This document shows positions 18,047-27,770 of a stretch of 64,000 bases of DNA, one piece after another. The translations under genes were made by a program, and so were the position numbers. Each line of letters starts with the position of its first letter. Within the stretch, counting starts at the first letter, position 1. Where the stretch lies: positions 1 to 64,000 of the forward strand of contig SVIH01000006.1 of the NCBI GenBank assembly GCA_015069575.1, written 5' to 3'. The notes beneath the pieces are model-generated. The model saw only the letters and a program-made list of their open reading frames with translations. It did not search any database and was not told where the DNA came from. Source of the DNA: Clostridiales bacterium. GTDB lineage: Bacteria > Bacillota > Clostridia > Christensenellales > QALW01.

Positions 18047-18988
18047 TTAAATCCCTGTTTCTAAAAAATGAATTTCTTTTTCTGATAATCTTATGTTTAT
18101 TCCTTTTTCTGCTTCCATTAATTGTTCTTCTTTTGAAAAACCGCCGATAACTGAAGCATTTAAGCCTTTTGAAAGCACATATGCTAATAAAAGCGCAGGA
18201 ATACTTTCATTTTTTTCTTTTGATAATTGATTAATTCTATCAAATCGCCTGAAATTTTCTTTTATTGGCAGATATGATTTTTGCCCTGATGGTTTCAGCG
18301 TTTCGCCTGTTATTAGTTTAGTAAAAAATCCTTTTGCCTGTACTGAATAAGCAATAATAGGAAATTGTGTTTCTTTATACCACAAATATTCAATATCGTT
18401 CATTGTAATATGGGTTAAATCACCTGTTAATGCAGGTGTTGTTAAAGCATATGAATAATTTATCTGGCTTACGCTAAATGGTTTTAAGCCGTTTTTTACT
18501 GCATATTCGTTTGCTTGTTGAATTCTGCCCGCTGTCCAGTTAGAAGCGCCAATTTCCTTTGTTTTACCTTGTTTAATAAATAAATTTGCGGTTTCAATAA
18601 GTTCTTCGGGTTTTTTTGTTATATCATCTCTGTGTAAAAAATAGATGTCTGTATAATCTGTTTTTAAGGCTTTTAAAGAAGTATCTAAATCTTTTTGTAA
18701 TTCGTTTTTACTTAATCTTGGAAGATACATTTTAGTTTTATCTTCAGGAAAACCGCCTTTTGAAATCAGAATATATTCATGTCTGTTTCTATTTTTAAGA
18801 TATTCACCTAAAAATTCTTCAGCCTGTCCGTTTTCATAACTGCGAGCAACATCCAAAGTATTATAGCATAAATCAAAATATCTGTCTAAATTTTTAAAAC
18901 AGTCTTTTTTATATTTTATATCCCCAAGCCTGCCTGCGCCAAGAATAAAATTATTAATTTTTACGCTGCCAACAGTTATTCTTTCCAT
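18047..18988 (-). CDS. Aldo/keto reductase
   Basis: NAD(P)H-dependent reductase with the (beta/alpha)8 fold. The catalytic tetrad can be placed at D46, Y51 (TLDVARSYENG), K77 (LISKGGF) and H119 (YFLHRDD). 313 residues; the C-terminal VIGGFSKEEQL segment is the usual cofactor-binding region. The substrate is unknown. The ATG at 18988 lies inside the recF 3' end (13-base overlap), so it is translated from the recF transcript, which is an unusual neighbour for this family. Confidence 0.9.
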   Translation of the reverse strand: MERITVGSVKINNFILGAGRLGDIKYKKDCFKNLDRYFDLCYNTLDVARSYENGQAEEFLGEYLKNRNRHEYILISKGGFPEDKTKMYLPRLSKNELQKDLDTSLKALKTDYTDIYFLHRDDITKKPEELIETANLFIKQGKTKEIGASNWTAGRIQQANEYAVKNGLKPFSVSQINYSYALTTPALTGDLTHITMNDIEYLWYKETQFPIIAYSVQAKGFFTKLITGETLKPSGQKSYLPIKENFRRFDRINQLSKEKNESIPALLLAYVLSKGLNASVIGGFSKEEQLMEAEKGINIRLSEKEIHFLETGI

Positions 18989-20055
18989 ACCTTGCCTTTT
19001 TCTACCCTAAAATAATTAACATTCATATTTTTAAAATATTCAACGGGTTGTGCAACTGTTATAATGGTTTGAACATCCTTAATTTTATTTAAAAGAAGTT
19101 TTTGCCTTGTTGGATCAAGTTCAGAAAGCACATCATCGAGTAAAAGCACGGGATATTCGCCTAAATCTTCTTTCATCATTTCAAGTTCAGTAAGTTTTAA
19201 TGCCAGTGTGGCTGTTCTTTGCTGCCCTTGTGAACCATAATATCTTAAATCAGTTTCACCTAATTTAATAATAATATCGTCTTTATGCGGGCCAACTGTA
19301 GTAAATCCCCGTTTAAGATCGGTTTCGTGATTTTTTTCTAAAATTTCCATTATTGCATTTTCGATATCTTCCCGATCATTTATTGAATCTTTATATTCGC
19401 AATAAAGGTCTTCTTTATTAGAAGAAAGATATTTATGCATCTGATTTACTTTAGGTTGTAATCGTTTACAAAAATCCCTGCGCGCTTTTATTATAGGTAC
19501 AGCCCTTTGTGCTAATAATGTATCCCAAACAAAAAGGTCGCTTTCCTTATTTGTTTCTTTTAATAATGAATTGCGTTGTTCAAGAACTTTATTATATTCA
19601 TTTAACGCGTAAAAATAATTTTTTGATACTTGTGAAAGTTCAATATCCATAAATCTACGGCGTTTTTGTGGACCTTCTTTTATTAAATCAAGATCTTCAG
19701 GTGAAAAAATTACACCGCTTAATTGCCCTAATATTTCACTTATTCTTGAAATAGCAAGTCCATTAACAAGAATTCTCTTTTTCTGACCGCGCGCAAGAAC
19801 CATATCAACTGTATGTTTTCCATCTCTTTGATAATTTTCAATTCTGACCCTTGCCCAAGGTTTATCAAAATGAATCATATCAAATTCGCGATTTGTCCTA
19901 TGGCTTTTTCCTGTACATAAAAGATAAATGGCTTCAACAATATTAGTTTTTCCCTGACCATTATCGCCATATAAAATTGTTATTCCTTTAGGAAAATTCA
20001 GCTCCAGATTTTCATAGGACCGAAAATTCCAGAGCTGTAATTTATTTAAATACAT
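18976..20055 (-). CDS. recF: DNA replication and repair protein RecF
   Basis: SMC-like ATPase that loads RecA at gaps with RecO and RecR. Walker A is GDNGQGKT at residues 30-37, the signature region is YGSQGQQRTATLALKL, and Walker B is VLLLDDVLSELD. 359 residues. It follows dnaN by one base. The small S4-domain gene (yaaA) often found between dnaN and recF is missing here. Confidence 0.96.
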   Translation of the reverse strand: MYLNKLQLWNFRSYENLELNFPKGITILYGDNGQGKTNIVEAIYLLCTGKSHRTNREFDMIHFDKPWARVRIENYQRDGKHTVDMVLARGQKKRILVNGLAISRISEILGQLSGVIFSPEDLDLIKEGPQKRRRFMDIELSQVSKNYFYALNEYNKVLEQRNSLLKETNKESDLFVWDTLLAQRAVPIIKARRDFCKRLQPKVNQMHKYLSSNKEDLYCEYKDSINDREDIENAIMEILEKNHETDLKRGFTTVGPHKDDIIIKLGETDLRYYGSQGQQRTATLALKLTELEMMKEDLGEYPVLLLDDVLSELDPTRQKLLLNKIKDVQTIITVAQPVEYFKNMNVNYFRVEKGKVWKE

Positions 20056-20056
20056 A

Positions 20057-21166
20057 TTATAATCTTACCGGTAAAATTAAATATAAATATTTTTCACCAT
20101 CAACAGGTGTAGTTACTGTTGGGCTTGTAGGTGTTGTATATGAAAACTTAATAAATTCATCTTCAATATTTTTAAGACATTCTACAAAATATCTTGGATT
20201 AACACCTATTTCAATAGGAGATGCTGTACCTTGAATATTAACTTCTTCATAAGCATTGCCTGTATCTGAACGGGAAGTAATAATAAGTTTATCTTCATTA
20301 AACTTAAATAATATATAATTATTACGGACATTTTCCCTTACAATAAGCCATGCGCGGTCAATTGCTTCTAAAAGTTCAATACGGTTTACTATAACGGAAT
20401 TTGTCATATTTGTAGGAATAATAGGCCTGTATTTTACAAACTCACCTTCTATTAAACGAGTCATAATTTTAGTTTCCTCAATTTCTACCATACAGAAACT
20501 TTTTTGAATATAAATTCTTGCTAAATCATCGCTATCGCTTATTATTTTTATAATTTCAGAAAGAGCCCTTGCAGGAATTATTGCTTTTATTGGTTCTGTA
20601 ATATCCTGTAAATATGAATTTCTTAATGATAATCTACAACCATCAAGAGCAACAACTGTAATATTTTCTTTATCAATATCAAATAAACATCCTGTTAAAA
20701 TCGGTCTTGATTCATCAGTTGCAGTTGCAAAAATAGTCTGATTAATCATCTTTTTAAGATCACCCTGACCGATAGTTATAAAATTATCTCTATCAATAAC
20801 AGGTAATGCAGGATATTCGCTTGGATCAAGAGCAGAAATATTAATTTTAGAAAAATTACCTGAAACTTCAATACCGTTAGTAAAATCACCTTTTATTTTA
20901 ATCATACCATCAGGCATTTTACGAATAACTTCAGAGAAGAATTTACCGTTAATAACAACCTGACCTTCTTCTTCAATATCAGCAGCAATTTTTGTTTGAA
21001 TTGTTAAAGAAGAATCTGTTGTTGTTAAAATAATATCACTGTTTCTGGCATTAAATAAAATACCTTCATAAATAGGATTTATACTTTTTGATGGTAATGC
21101 CTTTGAAGCAATATTAATACCGTTTAATAATGTGGCTTTATCGCAAGAAAAAATCATAAATTTCAA
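20057..21166 (-). CDS. dnaN: DNA polymerase III beta subunit (sliding clamp)
   Basis: Ring-shaped processivity clamp for the replicative polymerase. 369 residues with three clamp domains; typical segments are ATDESRPILTGCLFD in the middle domain and the C-terminal YLILPVRL. The ATG at 21166 follows AAGGCGGGG. dnaN is the first gene of the minus-strand unit. Directly upstream is an AT-rich stretch with DnaA boxes, the nearest 65 bases from the start, so the gene may be under DnaA control. dnaA itself is not upstream. Confidence 0.96.
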   Translation of the reverse strand: MKFMIFSCDKATLLNGINIASKALPSKSINPIYEGILFNARNSDIILTTTDSSLTIQTKIAADIEEEGQVVINGKFFSEVIRKMPDGMIKIKGDFTNGIEVSGNFSKINISALDPSEYPALPVIDRDNFITIGQGDLKKMINQTIFATATDESRPILTGCLFDIDKENITVVALDGCRLSLRNSYLQDITEPIKAIIPARALSEIIKIISDSDDLARIYIQKSFCMVEIEETKIMTRLIEGEFVKYRPIIPTNMTNSVIVNRIELLEAIDRAWLIVRENVRNNYILFKFNEDKLIITSRSDTGNAYEEVNIQGTASPIEIGVNPRYFVECLKNIEDEFIKFSYTTPTSPTVTTPVDGEKYLYLILPVRL

Positions 21167-21180
21167 CCCCGCCTTAATAT

Positions 21181-21600
21181 AATAATAAATGAATATAAAT
21201 AATCATATTCATAATATACTGTGTTTATAATGTGGATAACTTTTAAAAACCTTTTTATTACTTATATTTATGTTTTTTTGTGTGGTGGAAAGACTGTTTA
21301 TTAAGTGTTAACAAAAGTTAATAACTTTTTTAAAACTTAATAAATTAAGTAAATTTTACTAGTTATATTATACCATTTTTAAGTATTTTTTGCAATAGTT
21401 ATATAAAAAAATATACTAATTTATAAATAATAAAAAAACGCTGTGAATAACTTAATGTTTTTAAAAATTTTTTAAGAATATAGTTAATAAAGTTAATAAT
21501 TATTATAGTGGATAAGTTGATAAGTTTATAAAATTGAGATATATAAGTAAAAAATAAAAAAAGTTATCAACATTTGTATGTTTATATTATGTGAATTAAA
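21181..21600. other. Probable replication origin region (oriC) with DnaA boxes
   Basis: This gene-free, very AT-rich stretch upstream of dnaN holds a perfect DnaA box TGTGGATAA at 21231-21239. One-mismatch sites are TGTGAATAA at 21442-21450, AGTGGATAA at 21507-21515 and TTATCAACA at 21564-21572; a weaker TGTGAATTA is at 21590-21598. Long A/T runs between them (for example around 21301-21360 and 21460-21500) could unwind. dnaN-recF next door, two parS sites 4-6 kb away and a change in base skew support an origin. No dnaA follows, which is the main reason for caution. Confidence 0.6.
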
Positions 21601-21628
21601 AAAACTGCTGAAAAAATTCAGCAGTTTT
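21601..21628 (-). terminator. Terminator of the GH99-like gene pair
   Basis: Stem AAAACTGCTGAA / TTCAGCAGTTTT with A4 loop, just after the minus-strand stop at 21631. Confidence 0.85.
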
Positions 21629-21630
21629 TT

Positions 21631-22665
21631 TTATTTTATAATTTCTTTTATTACATTTAATCTACTTGTATCAATAAGTTTTTCACCGTTTTTATCATAA
21701 AGTTGATTACCATCTTTATCAACTTTTAATGTGGGGCAGATCCATCCGCCTTCATCGTGCTCATTCCAAGCATAAATAATACAAGTATTTGATTTTGTAA
21801 TATCAAAATTATTTTTATCTGATAAATATTCTTTTGCTAATTTATACTGTTCTTTAATTTCTTCTAAAGAAGCATAACCAACAGAATTGTTTTCTTCAAC
21901 TTTCATCCAGGTAACAGGCGTATCAAATCTTGGACGCGGATGCCAGCCTGCTGAAAGTGGTAAAATATTATCAATACCTTCTTCCCTGCCTTCTTTACCA
22001 TGGCGTTCCCAGACAGTGTATACATCGGTATCTAAAAACTCTCTGAAGGTTTTATCAGAGCCACCAATAGAGTATCTTGAAATAGCATCGCCGCCTATTT
22101 CTTTAATAGTTTTAGGTCCGATACCGCAAACAACAAAGAAAGGTGTAGAAATATTTTCGTTTTTACAGGCTTCTTTATAAAAAGCAATATCTTCTTTAAT
22201 TTTATCAACTGTGTGATGCCAGGCATAATAATAAACAAGAGGCCTATCATTGATTTTTTGATAATAATCTTCTTTAAAAAGTTCAATTAATTCTTTATGA
22301 GCATAATCCTTTAAAATTGCGTTATTATCTAAAAAAGCACAAAGTTTTACCTGATTTCTATATTTACTTTTTGTGTGAAAATCACGTGCCATTCTTAATC
22401 CTGAATGTGAATACCAAACATAAGAAAAATAGTCAATACCGGCATCTTTTGCATATTTCATTTCCTTATCAAAAATTTCTTGGGTATATTCAGGAATATA
22501 AACATTGCCTTCTTTATTTATTTCAGCGAAGAAAGGTGCGCGAAAATGATATTCAGGTCTGCTTAAAGCCTTTAAACATTGGGCACTTGTATCTGTTGCT
22601 TCCCTTGCAGGATACCAGGCATCCCAGCGGACTGCACCAAAAGTTGTTTTGTTAACCCTGTTCAT
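21631..22665 (-). CDS. GH99/GH71-like TIM-barrel protein without signal peptide
   Basis: 344 residues that align by eye along their whole length with the catalytic half of the gene just upstream: TFGAVRWDAWYP, YHFRAPFFAEI, QEIFDKEMKYAKDAGIDYF and, near the end, IIYAWNEHDEGGWICPTL. These motifs resemble uncharacterised bacterial proteins grouped with GH99/GH71-like or WbsX-like domains; I cannot name the enzyme activity. There is no signal peptide, carbohydrate-binding domain or membrane anchor, so it is predicted to be cytoplasmic. The ATG overlaps the upstream stop by 14 bases and has GAGG upstream; the pair is a tandem duplication. Confidence 0.6.
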   Translation of the reverse strand: MNRVNKTTFGAVRWDAWYPAREATDTSAQCLKALSRPEYHFRAPFFAEINKEGNVYIPEYTQEIFDKEMKYAKDAGIDYFSYVWYSHSGLRMARDFHTKSKYRNQVKLCAFLDNNAILKDYAHKELIELFKEDYYQKINDRPLVYYYAWHHTVDKIKEDIAFYKEACKNENISTPFFVVCGIGPKTIKEIGGDAISRYSIGGSDKTFREFLDTDVYTVWERHGKEGREEGIDNILPLSAGWHPRPRFDTPVTWMKVEENNSVGYASLEEIKEQYKLAKEYLSDKNNFDITKSNTCIIYAWNEHDEGGWICPTLKVDKDGNQLYDKNGEKLIDTSRLNVIKEIIK

Positions 22666-25840: not shown

Positions 25841-25856
25841 TGTTTCACGTGAAACA
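25841..25856. promoter_or_regulatory. parS: parS centromere site (ParB/Spo0J binding)
   Basis: The 16-base perfect palindrome TGTTTCACGTGAAACA equals the parS consensus bound by ParB/Spo0J in Firmicutes and many other bacteria. It fills the short gap between the GH13 gene and the YgjP gene. parS sites cluster near oriC, in line with the DnaA-box region 4.3 kb away. Confidence 0.9.
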
Positions 25857-27770
25857 TTATTTAAATACTGCTGCGCTGCGCGGGGGCAAAAGCAAATAAT
25901 ATCCGTTTTCTCTTAAAGAAAATTGAACGCCACAACCTGTATCACATAATAATTCGGGCGCGTTTCTGAAATAAGAGATGTCAAGCAAAGTTTCAACGGT
26001 GGTATCTGTAGGGTTAATTAACGCGTATCGCCATTTTCCCTTTAAAGAACGACGAATTGATAAAAGGCTTCCTGCAGTATCGATGTATAATTTGCCTTCT
26101 TTTAAAATTTCATTTCTTAAATTGCTTACAGTTTTATACCAATCCATAAGTTCATTATCTTCTTTTCCCCAAGGAAAAGTTTTGCGGTTAAAAGGGTCTT
26201 TTAATCCTGTAAGGCCGGCTTCATCGCCATAATAAATACAGGGCATACCGGGAAGCATAAAAACAATCAACGCCGCAAGTTTGCTTAATGCTTTTGCCTT
26301 TATAAAAGTATCTTCGTCAGGAACATATACCGCCTGTTCTTCCCTTAACATATTCTCTGCCGATGTGCAAAGACGGGTTAAAATGCGTTCACTATCATGG
26401 GTTGAAAGGAAATTCATAAGGCAATAAAAGGTGCTTTCGGGATAGTTTTCCCTTAACGAAAGAACTCTTAATTTAAAATCGTTTGCAGAAATTTTTTCTG
26501 TTAAAAAATCAACAATGGCATTTTTAAGGGGGTAGTTCATTACAGTATCAAGTTCTTCGCCCCATAAAAATTTTCGCAATTCGTTGTAACTTACCTTGTT
26601 GCTTGCATCCTCCCATACTTCTCCAAGAATCAGCGCGTCAGCATCGGCTTCTTTTACACATTTTCTTAATTCAACAAGAAATTCATCGGGAAGTTCATCT
26701 GCCACATCAAGACGCCAACCGGAAAGACCTGCTTTTATCCATCTTTTTATAATACTGTTCTTGTTTTTTAAAATATAATCCATATAAGCGGGGGTAAGTT
26801 CTTTAACACATGGCAAGGACCAAACACCCCACCAACTATCATACTTGTTGGGGAATTCTTCAAAATCATACCAGTCATAATACGGAGAATCCTTTGATTG
26901 ATATGCGCCTAAGGTGTTATAATTTCCGTTGCGATTAAAATATTTACTATCGGAACCTGTGTGTGAAAAAACACCGTCTAAAATAATGCGTATCCCCTTT
27001 TTCTTTGCGGATTTTAAAAGATGAATAAAATCTTCGTTTGTGCCTAAAAGCGAGTCGACAGTCTCATAATCACCTGTATCGTAGCGGTGGTTTGAAAACG
27101 CTTCAAAAACGGGGTTCAAGTATACAACATCAACATTAAGACTTTTTAAATAATCAAGTTTTTCTTCAATGCCCTTAAAATTACCGCCAAAGAAATCGTT
27201 GGCAGGATAATATCCAAGGGCCTGGTCAATTTTATAATCGGGCTCATCAAACCAATTTTCGTGAAGATTTTCGTGTTTTTTAGATAAAAAACCACCTTTT
27301 TTATAAAATCTATCAGGAAAAATCTGATACATTGTGGCGCCTTTTGCCCACAAAGGTGTTGTAAAATCGTTTTTATAAACTGTTATTTGAAAACTGCGGT
27401 TATAGTCAATTGATTCACAAACATCGCCTTTTCCGCCAAGCAAAGACGGATTATTAAGGCAATAAAGAGGTTTTACAGGCGTGTTTACTATAAAACAGTA
27501 CCACATTAATCCCAATGTTTCACATGAAACATTTATGGAATATTCCTCTAAAAAATCACCGTAAGGGGTGTGATCAAAAGAGTTTGTGCGAATCATGTTG
27601 TATAAAAATTCCTGATCGTCTTTCCAGAGCCTTAAAGTAACCCCGTAAGGAGAAAGGGCGCGGGAAACAAATATCCGCAAAACAAGGCTATCCCCTTGGG
27701 CAATGGCACCTTGGGGACAGCGGAACTGTTCATCGTGTGAATCAAATATTATACTTTGGAAAGTTTCCAT
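25857..27770 (-). CDS. GH13 alpha-glycosidase (neopullulanase/cyclomaltodextrinase-like)
   Basis: 637 residues: an N-terminal immunoglobulin-like domain (about 1-130), the catalytic barrel with DGVFSHTGSDSKYF, nucleophile D355 (GWRLDVADE), acid/base E384 (ILGEVWED) and transition-state D459 (LSTHDSE), then a C-terminal beta domain. The N-terminal domain and lack of a signal peptide point to a cytoplasmic maltodextrin- or cyclodextrin-degrading enzyme. It overlaps glgP by 22 bases, so it probably supplies linear chains to the phosphorylase. A parS-like site lies inside the coding region (27516-27531). Confidence 0.9.
   Translation of the reverse strand: METFQSIIFDSHDEQFRCPQGAIAQGDSLVLRIFVSRALSPYGVTLRLWKDDQEFLYNMIRTNSFDHTPYGDFLEEYSINVSCETLGLMWYCFIVNTPVKPLYCLNNPSLLGGKGDVCESIDYNRSFQITVYKNDFTTPLWAKGATMYQIFPDRFYKKGGFLSKKHENLHENWFDEPDYKIDQALGYYPANDFFGGNFKGIEEKLDYLKSLNVDVVYLNPVFEAFSNHRYDTGDYETVDSLLGTNEDFIHLLKSAKKKGIRIILDGVFSHTGSDSKYFNRNGNYNTLGAYQSKDSPYYDWYDFEEFPNKYDSWWGVWSLPCVKELTPAYMDYILKNKNSIIKRWIKAGLSGWRLDVADELPDEFLVELRKCVKEADADALILGEVWEDASNKVSYNELRKFLWGEELDTVMNYPLKNAIVDFLTEKISANDFKLRVLSLRENYPESTFYCLMNFLSTHDSERILTRLCTSAENMLREEQAVYVPDEDTFIKAKALSKLAALIVFMLPGMPCIYYGDEAGLTGLKDPFNRKTFPWGKEDNELMDWYKTVSNLRNEILKEGKLYIDTAGSLLSIRRSLKGKWRYALINPTDTTVETLLDISYFRNAPELLCDTGCGVQFSLRENGYYLLLPPRSAAVFK
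27516..27531. promoter_or_regulatory. Second parS-like site inside the GH13 gene
   Basis: TGTTTCACATGAAACA differs from the perfect parS at 25841 in a single central base (CACATG for CACGTG). Finding two so similar 16-mers within 1.7 kb by chance is very unlikely, and parS sites inside genes are common. Confidence 0.7.

Follow-up and report, generated by a model that had tools for sequence, protein, structure and literature searches.

Few gene orders in bacteria are as conserved as the dnaA-oriC-dnaN block, and the locus described here raises the question of where a chromosome initiates replication when dnaN stands without dnaA beside it. The window, a 64,000-bp stretch comprising positions 1-64000 of contig C15, belongs to a 1.59-Mb draft genome in 22 unordered contigs, and GC skew was read contig by contig. 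Of named relatives, the closest that we found is a metagenome bin from sheep colon, 'Clostridia bacterium isolate RGIG5434' (G001 below), whose DnaN is 76% identical. A preliminary description of the window had offered two readings: either dnaA has moved away and the origin was left at dnaN, or the region is a leftover DnaA-regulated promoter only.

A profile search of the genome returned one protein that passed the DnaA cut-off, encoded at C21:22905-24191 (485 bits). As had been proposed, dnaA is absent from its usual place; it is not in the window and sits on C21, with dnaN on C15. Because both genes lie at least 20 kb inside their own contigs (102,842 bp for C15 and 77,531 bp for C21), the distance between them is at least about 43 kb (20.06 + 22.9 kb). 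Beside dnaA are rpmH, rnpA and yidD (small genes named by eye) and, beyond yidD, YidC- and Jag-family genes, and these dnaA neighbours run the opposite way. The gap between dnaA and rpmH contains two DnaA boxes, one perfect and the other with a single mismatch. C21 thus has the clostridial arrangement of rpmH-rnpA beside dnaA with DnaA boxes between, and a dnaA flanked by two box-bearing halves and adjoining dnaN is not found in this genome. In G001, too, the matching dnaA neighbourhood (contig C16) is apart from dnaN (contig C2), and the DnaA proteins of the two genomes are 78% identical. A 709-aa protein of unknown family is encoded just downstream of dnaA (L004:750-2879, minus strand) and is kept beside dnaA in G001 with 64% identity. 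When the window's genome was taken together with 80 relatives, dnaA was matched in 80 of the 81 genomes and dnaN in 79. The two genes were called separated when their contigs differed or when over 5 kb lay between them, which applied to 31 genomes including all five members of the window's family; G055 was left out, its dnaN being fragmentary and at the edge of a contig.

In the window, dnaN (20057..21157 or 21166, minus strand; TIGR00663, 279 bits) and recF (18976..20055, minus strand; TIGR00611) are preceded by the predicted dnaN-side half of oriC, a gene-free A+T-rich gap with a DnaA-box cluster (21167..21630, no strand assigned) that is marked out by its boxes, its composition and a strand-corrected skew step. 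Translation of dnaN probably begins with the ATG at 21157, which is preceded by AAGGCGGGG; the encoded MIFSCDKATL is the N-terminal start of DnaN in G001 too. An aldo/keto reductase gene lies between recF and gltX at 18047-18988, and G001 has no counterpart at that place. The gap had been described as a gene-free AT-rich stretch of about 430 bases and proved to span 464 bp (473 counted from the dnaN ATG) at 82.9% A+T, a composition as high as which was found in 3 of 1271 window stretches of equal length.

The gap was scanned with a string that we take to be the DnaA box. The same box also appears in published work (PMC8287927, PMC7561715). The scan returned four boxes with at most one mismatch against 0.13 expected, and at least four were seen in none of 5000 dinucleotide shuffles of the gap. 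They agree with the one perfect box and at least three one-mismatch boxes of which the preliminary description had spoken: the perfect box TTATCCACA (21231..21239, minus strand), about 80 bp before the dnaN ATG and matched in position in family relatives, and the one-mismatch boxes TTATTCACA (21442..21450, minus strand), TTATCCACT (21507..21515, minus strand) and TTATCAACA (21564..21572, plus strand). Over the whole window boxes were not enriched (23 seen, 19 expected), so the signal at dnaN is one of clustering. Among 33 gaps of at least 150 bp on C15 and C21, the dnaN gap ranked first in box count and the gap on the rpmH-dnaA side on C21 second with two boxes; every other such gap on C15 had at most one box with at most one mismatch, and a density of three or more such boxes per 500 bp was reached across the two contigs by the dnaN gap only. 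The looser box TTWTNCACA was less favourable to an origin: six were counted upstream of dnaN against 2.8 expected (P 0.02) and five upstream of dnaA against 2.6 (P 0.11). The dnaN gap is a DnaA-box cluster in an A+T-rich intergenic stretch, as is looked for in an origin.

The perfect box is the first of a tandem pair whose second member, the weaker box TTATAAACA with two mismatches (21222..21230, minus strand), abuts it. When all five family members were aligned, each had two abutting DnaA-box-like 9-mers about 65-84 bp before dnaN, followed by a few bases and then an A+T tract rich in T-centred triplets. In the window this tract (21170..21221, minus strand), with the tandem boxes on one side and the dnaN ribosome site on the other, is a candidate unwinding region with degenerate DnaA-trio-like triplets. 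Its triplet phase is broken and its score no better than that of shuffles (P 0.59), so the unwinding site of this genome is inferred from position; clear trios stand at the same place in G001 and G004, and the G004 tract CTACTATTATTATTAATAATA resembles the C. difficile oriC2 trio given in the available portion of PMC7561715. Trio elements were given a weighted score, with TTWTNCACA as the box. Of 30 separated genomes, 9 reached a score of at least 6 upstream of dnaN (G001, G004, G007, G012, G017, G029, G044, G060 and G065), as did 11 of 47 others, and none of 23 separated genomes reached it upstream of dnaA; for several relatives the gene starts are HMM edges, which may shift these upstream regions by some tens of bases.

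Raw GC skew on C15 proved ambiguous. The cumulative minimum was at 48.5 kb, away from dnaN, and the difference between 20-kb flanks was smaller across dnaN (+0.011) than across dnaA (+0.022). Relative to G001, the window's dnaN-recF-gltX-oadB block is inverted with respect to the YgjP-GlgX-GlgP cluster, and the two genes adjoining the predicted origin are without counterpart in those stretches of G001 that were compared; a rearrangement of the region since its divergence from G001 plausibly disturbed the raw skew and made a correction necessary. Third-codon-position skew corrected for gene strand was adopted once the raw result had been seen. Plus-strand genes changed by this measure from -0.203 left of dnaN to +0.093 on its right (21.6-52 kb), and minus-strand genes from +0.011 to +0.230 over the same intervals. 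A change-point fit to the 83 ORFs of C15 gave its best upward step, of size 0.218 with F 43.3, in the interval from 21166 to 21631; this was equalled in 0 of 400 permutations, an optimistic value since neighbouring genes are not independent, and the step stayed in the dnaN gap at ORF cut-offs of 80, 100, 150 and 200 aa. A switch in strand asymmetry is thus present at the dnaN gap by corrected skew and is invisible in the raw cumulative skew alone. The preliminary description had looked to a skew minimum at a distant dnaA, with none at dnaN, as evidence against an origin here; the opposite was found, and the strand-corrected third-position skew of C21 had no step (P 0.84; -0.008 at dnaA itself).

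The exact gap of the step is somewhat measure-dependent, within a robust zone of about 12.5-25 kb of C15. It moved to 15.2 kb with four-fold sites and to 25.2 kb with all positions, codon positions 1 and 2 gave no significant step on C15, and the second-best gaps of the third-position fit had F values nearly equal to the best. These results would suit an origin close by and not in the dnaN gap, for example elsewhere within that zone. We consider this very unlikely, since every other C15 gap of at least 150 bp has a single box of at most one mismatch or none, and the family-wide tandem boxes sit before dnaN.

Segregation sites also point to dnaN. Genomes were scanned with TGTTNCACGTGNAACA, which we take to be the parS motif. 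The window's genome has two sites with at most one mismatch, a perfect TGTTTCACGTGAAACA (25841..25856, no strand assigned) between the YgjP-like and GlgX-like genes and a one-mismatch TGTTTCACATGAAACA (27516..27531, no strand assigned) inside the GlgX-like (glycogen-debranching-like) coding sequence; they lie 4.7 and 6.4 kb from dnaN, the first in the same gap and the second at the matching place in G001. A reversed-pattern control gave no site in the five family genomes. Proximity of parS is usual for an origin, if not universal, and is seen here; parB is on a third contig, C9. Among 25 genomes with dnaA and dnaN on different contigs, parS was on the dnaN contig in 17, four of which rest on one-mismatch sites alone (G032, G035, G057, where parS is 73 kb from dnaN, and G064), on the dnaA contig in two and on neither in six (G002, G007, G030, G033, G042 and G053); the dnaN of one genome, G003, is itself split over two contigs. 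The two with parS on the dnaA contig, G021 and G048 (L116-L123), are of one genus. Both still have a rise of skew at dnaN, and the predicted origin may have become separated from the segregation site in this genus. Six genomes have the two genes separated on a single contig: parS is closer to dnaN in G012, G022 and G038, G009 has it between both genes, and G010 and G077 have it on other contigs.

The relatives yielded a similar picture in raw skew, measured over flanks of up to 20 kb with at least 5 kb required on each side (G032, with a short right flank, was left out of the dnaN count). Skew rose across dnaN in 18 of 20 separated relatives, 15 of them flipping from negative to positive, and across dnaA in 5 of 15 with no flips; in paired comparison the rise at dnaN exceeded that at dnaA in 12 of 14 (P 0.0009). 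The cleanest case is G038, where, over the initial 100 kb of its 3.97-Mb contig, the skew minimum is at 63.0 kb, with dnaN at 63.6-64.7 kb and dnaA at 16.0-17.3 kb, 46 kb from the minimum. In the 80 kb examined of G012, the minimum is at 15.0 kb, the dnaN start at 14.96 kb and dnaA at 52.7-54.0 kb. The whole 115.6-kb dnaN contig of the same-genus G001 has its raw cumulative minimum at 75 kb, about 5 kb from dnaN at 80.3 kb, and the raw cumulative skew climbs throughout across dnaA on its separate contig. Strand-corrected skew was less exact in these genomes: its best step was about 20 kb from dnaN in G001 (at 100.7 kb, the step at dnaN also being significant) and in G009, and about 11 kb away in G012, where a step at dnaA was also nominally significant. 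The two genomes with no rise at dnaN were G057 and G060. In G057 and G077 (L084-L087, L092-L095) skew is positive on either side of both dnaN and dnaA, and their origin may be at neither gene.

We then weighed the second reading, in which the region is only a DnaA-regulated dnaN promoter, its boxes kept to couple the supply of clamp to DnaA activity, and replication starts at another site. A good sigma-A-like promoter of dnaN-recF does lie among the boxes (TTGCAA-17-TATAAT with TG before the second hexamer; 21367..21395, minus strand), with counterparts in G001 and G002, and the accessible part of PMC6669920 describes repression of the dnaA-dnaN operon by DnaA overexpression in B. subtilis. 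A promoter alone, however, leaves unexplained the corrected skew step in the gap, the nearby parS sites and the skew rises in 18 of 20 separated relatives, and we regard this reading as very unlikely; promoter and origin roles may well coexist in the region. On its far side, a terminator-like hairpin (21598..21631, no strand assigned) separates the predicted origin from the next gene (21631-22665, minus strand). The earlier naming of that gene as a GH99-like glycosidase is plausible, its basis being a weak Pfam Glyco_tran_WbsX match (28.3 bits, cut-off 25.1). An Rfam search of the window and the dnaA locus gave no match. That dnaA and dnaN are truly adjacent and were parted by assembly is barely credible even for an unfinished draft of 22 contigs, given the depth of both loci inside their contigs, the same division between contigs in G001, and DnaN and DnaA identities to G001 so close that both contigs fit one lineage.

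The evidence from strand-corrected skew, parS placement and relatives supports the reading in which dnaA moved away and the origin was left at dnaN. We consider it very likely, from sequence comparison, that the dnaN gap is oriC, derived from the dnaN-side half (oriC2/incC) of a bipartite clostridial origin, with dnaA and the rpmH side, carrying its own few boxes, elsewhere at a distance of at least about 43 kb. Under this model DnaA made from the distant gene would bind the box cluster in the dnaN gap and be loaded from the tandem boxes onto the adjoining A+T-rich tract, where the duplex would open and the origin fire. Forks would depart both ways from the gap, ParB on the nearby parS sites would segregate the new origins, and dnaN-recF would be transcribed from their own promoter within the predicted origin.

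The layout resembles the bipartite oriC of clostridia and Bacillus (oriC1 at rpmH-dnaA, oriC2/incC at dnaA-dnaN) in having a box cluster and A+T tract directly before dnaN-recF, and differs from it in the distance, at least 43 kb, to dnaA and the rpmH-side boxes. Tandem boxes here, and DnaA-trios in relatives, recall C. difficile oriC2 and the B. subtilis BUS as presented in the parts available of PMC7561715 and PMC8287927. An origin at dnaN with a distant dnaA, as predicted here, is the usual cyanobacterial arrangement in the available text of PMC6323995 and PMC7198777, which also place the origin and skew shift of Synechococcus elongatus PCC 7942 at dnaN with dnaA encoded elsewhere. Cyanobacteria, however, are a different phylum with a different box (TTTTCCACA, compared with TTATCCACA as the best box here). 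For Clostridia, we found no account in the literature of separated dnaA and dnaN, a weak negative owing in part to narrow phrasing of the search.

Separation appears to have a history of its own in these bacteria. A quick DnaN tree covering 76 genomes, in which 28 of 73 inner branches have weak support and three rows are unlabelled, requires at least 12 changes to account for 33 broken arrangements (28 separated, five locally rearranged) and 40 standard ones, and because of this number dnaA-dnaN linkage was probably lost several times. In G037, G079, G059, G049 and G075 (L129-L134, L156, L019) the block is rearranged locally, with dnaN and dnaA convergent, in dnaN-dnaA order or divergent; in G059 skew drops, and does not rise, across dnaA and dnaN. 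Both origin halves are reported to be essential in vivo in B. subtilis and H. pylori (PMC6669920, available text), and in C. difficile both are needed for unwinding in vitro (PMC7561715, available text). We are evenly divided on the wider proposal that the bipartite origin was split many times within one order of Clostridia, with the dnaN half alone self-sufficient, dnaA and the rpmH half free to travel, and co-location and pairing dispensable.

In genomes of this kind, origin finders will misplace the origin, as will genome records rotated to dnaA. Repeated departure of dnaA with the origin kept at dnaN would be a natural experiment on why the linkage exists, whether for initiator dosage or looping of the halves, and on what a minimal origin comprises. 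The textbook dnaA-origin-dnaN block is apparently not obligatory in this uncultured Clostridia lineage.
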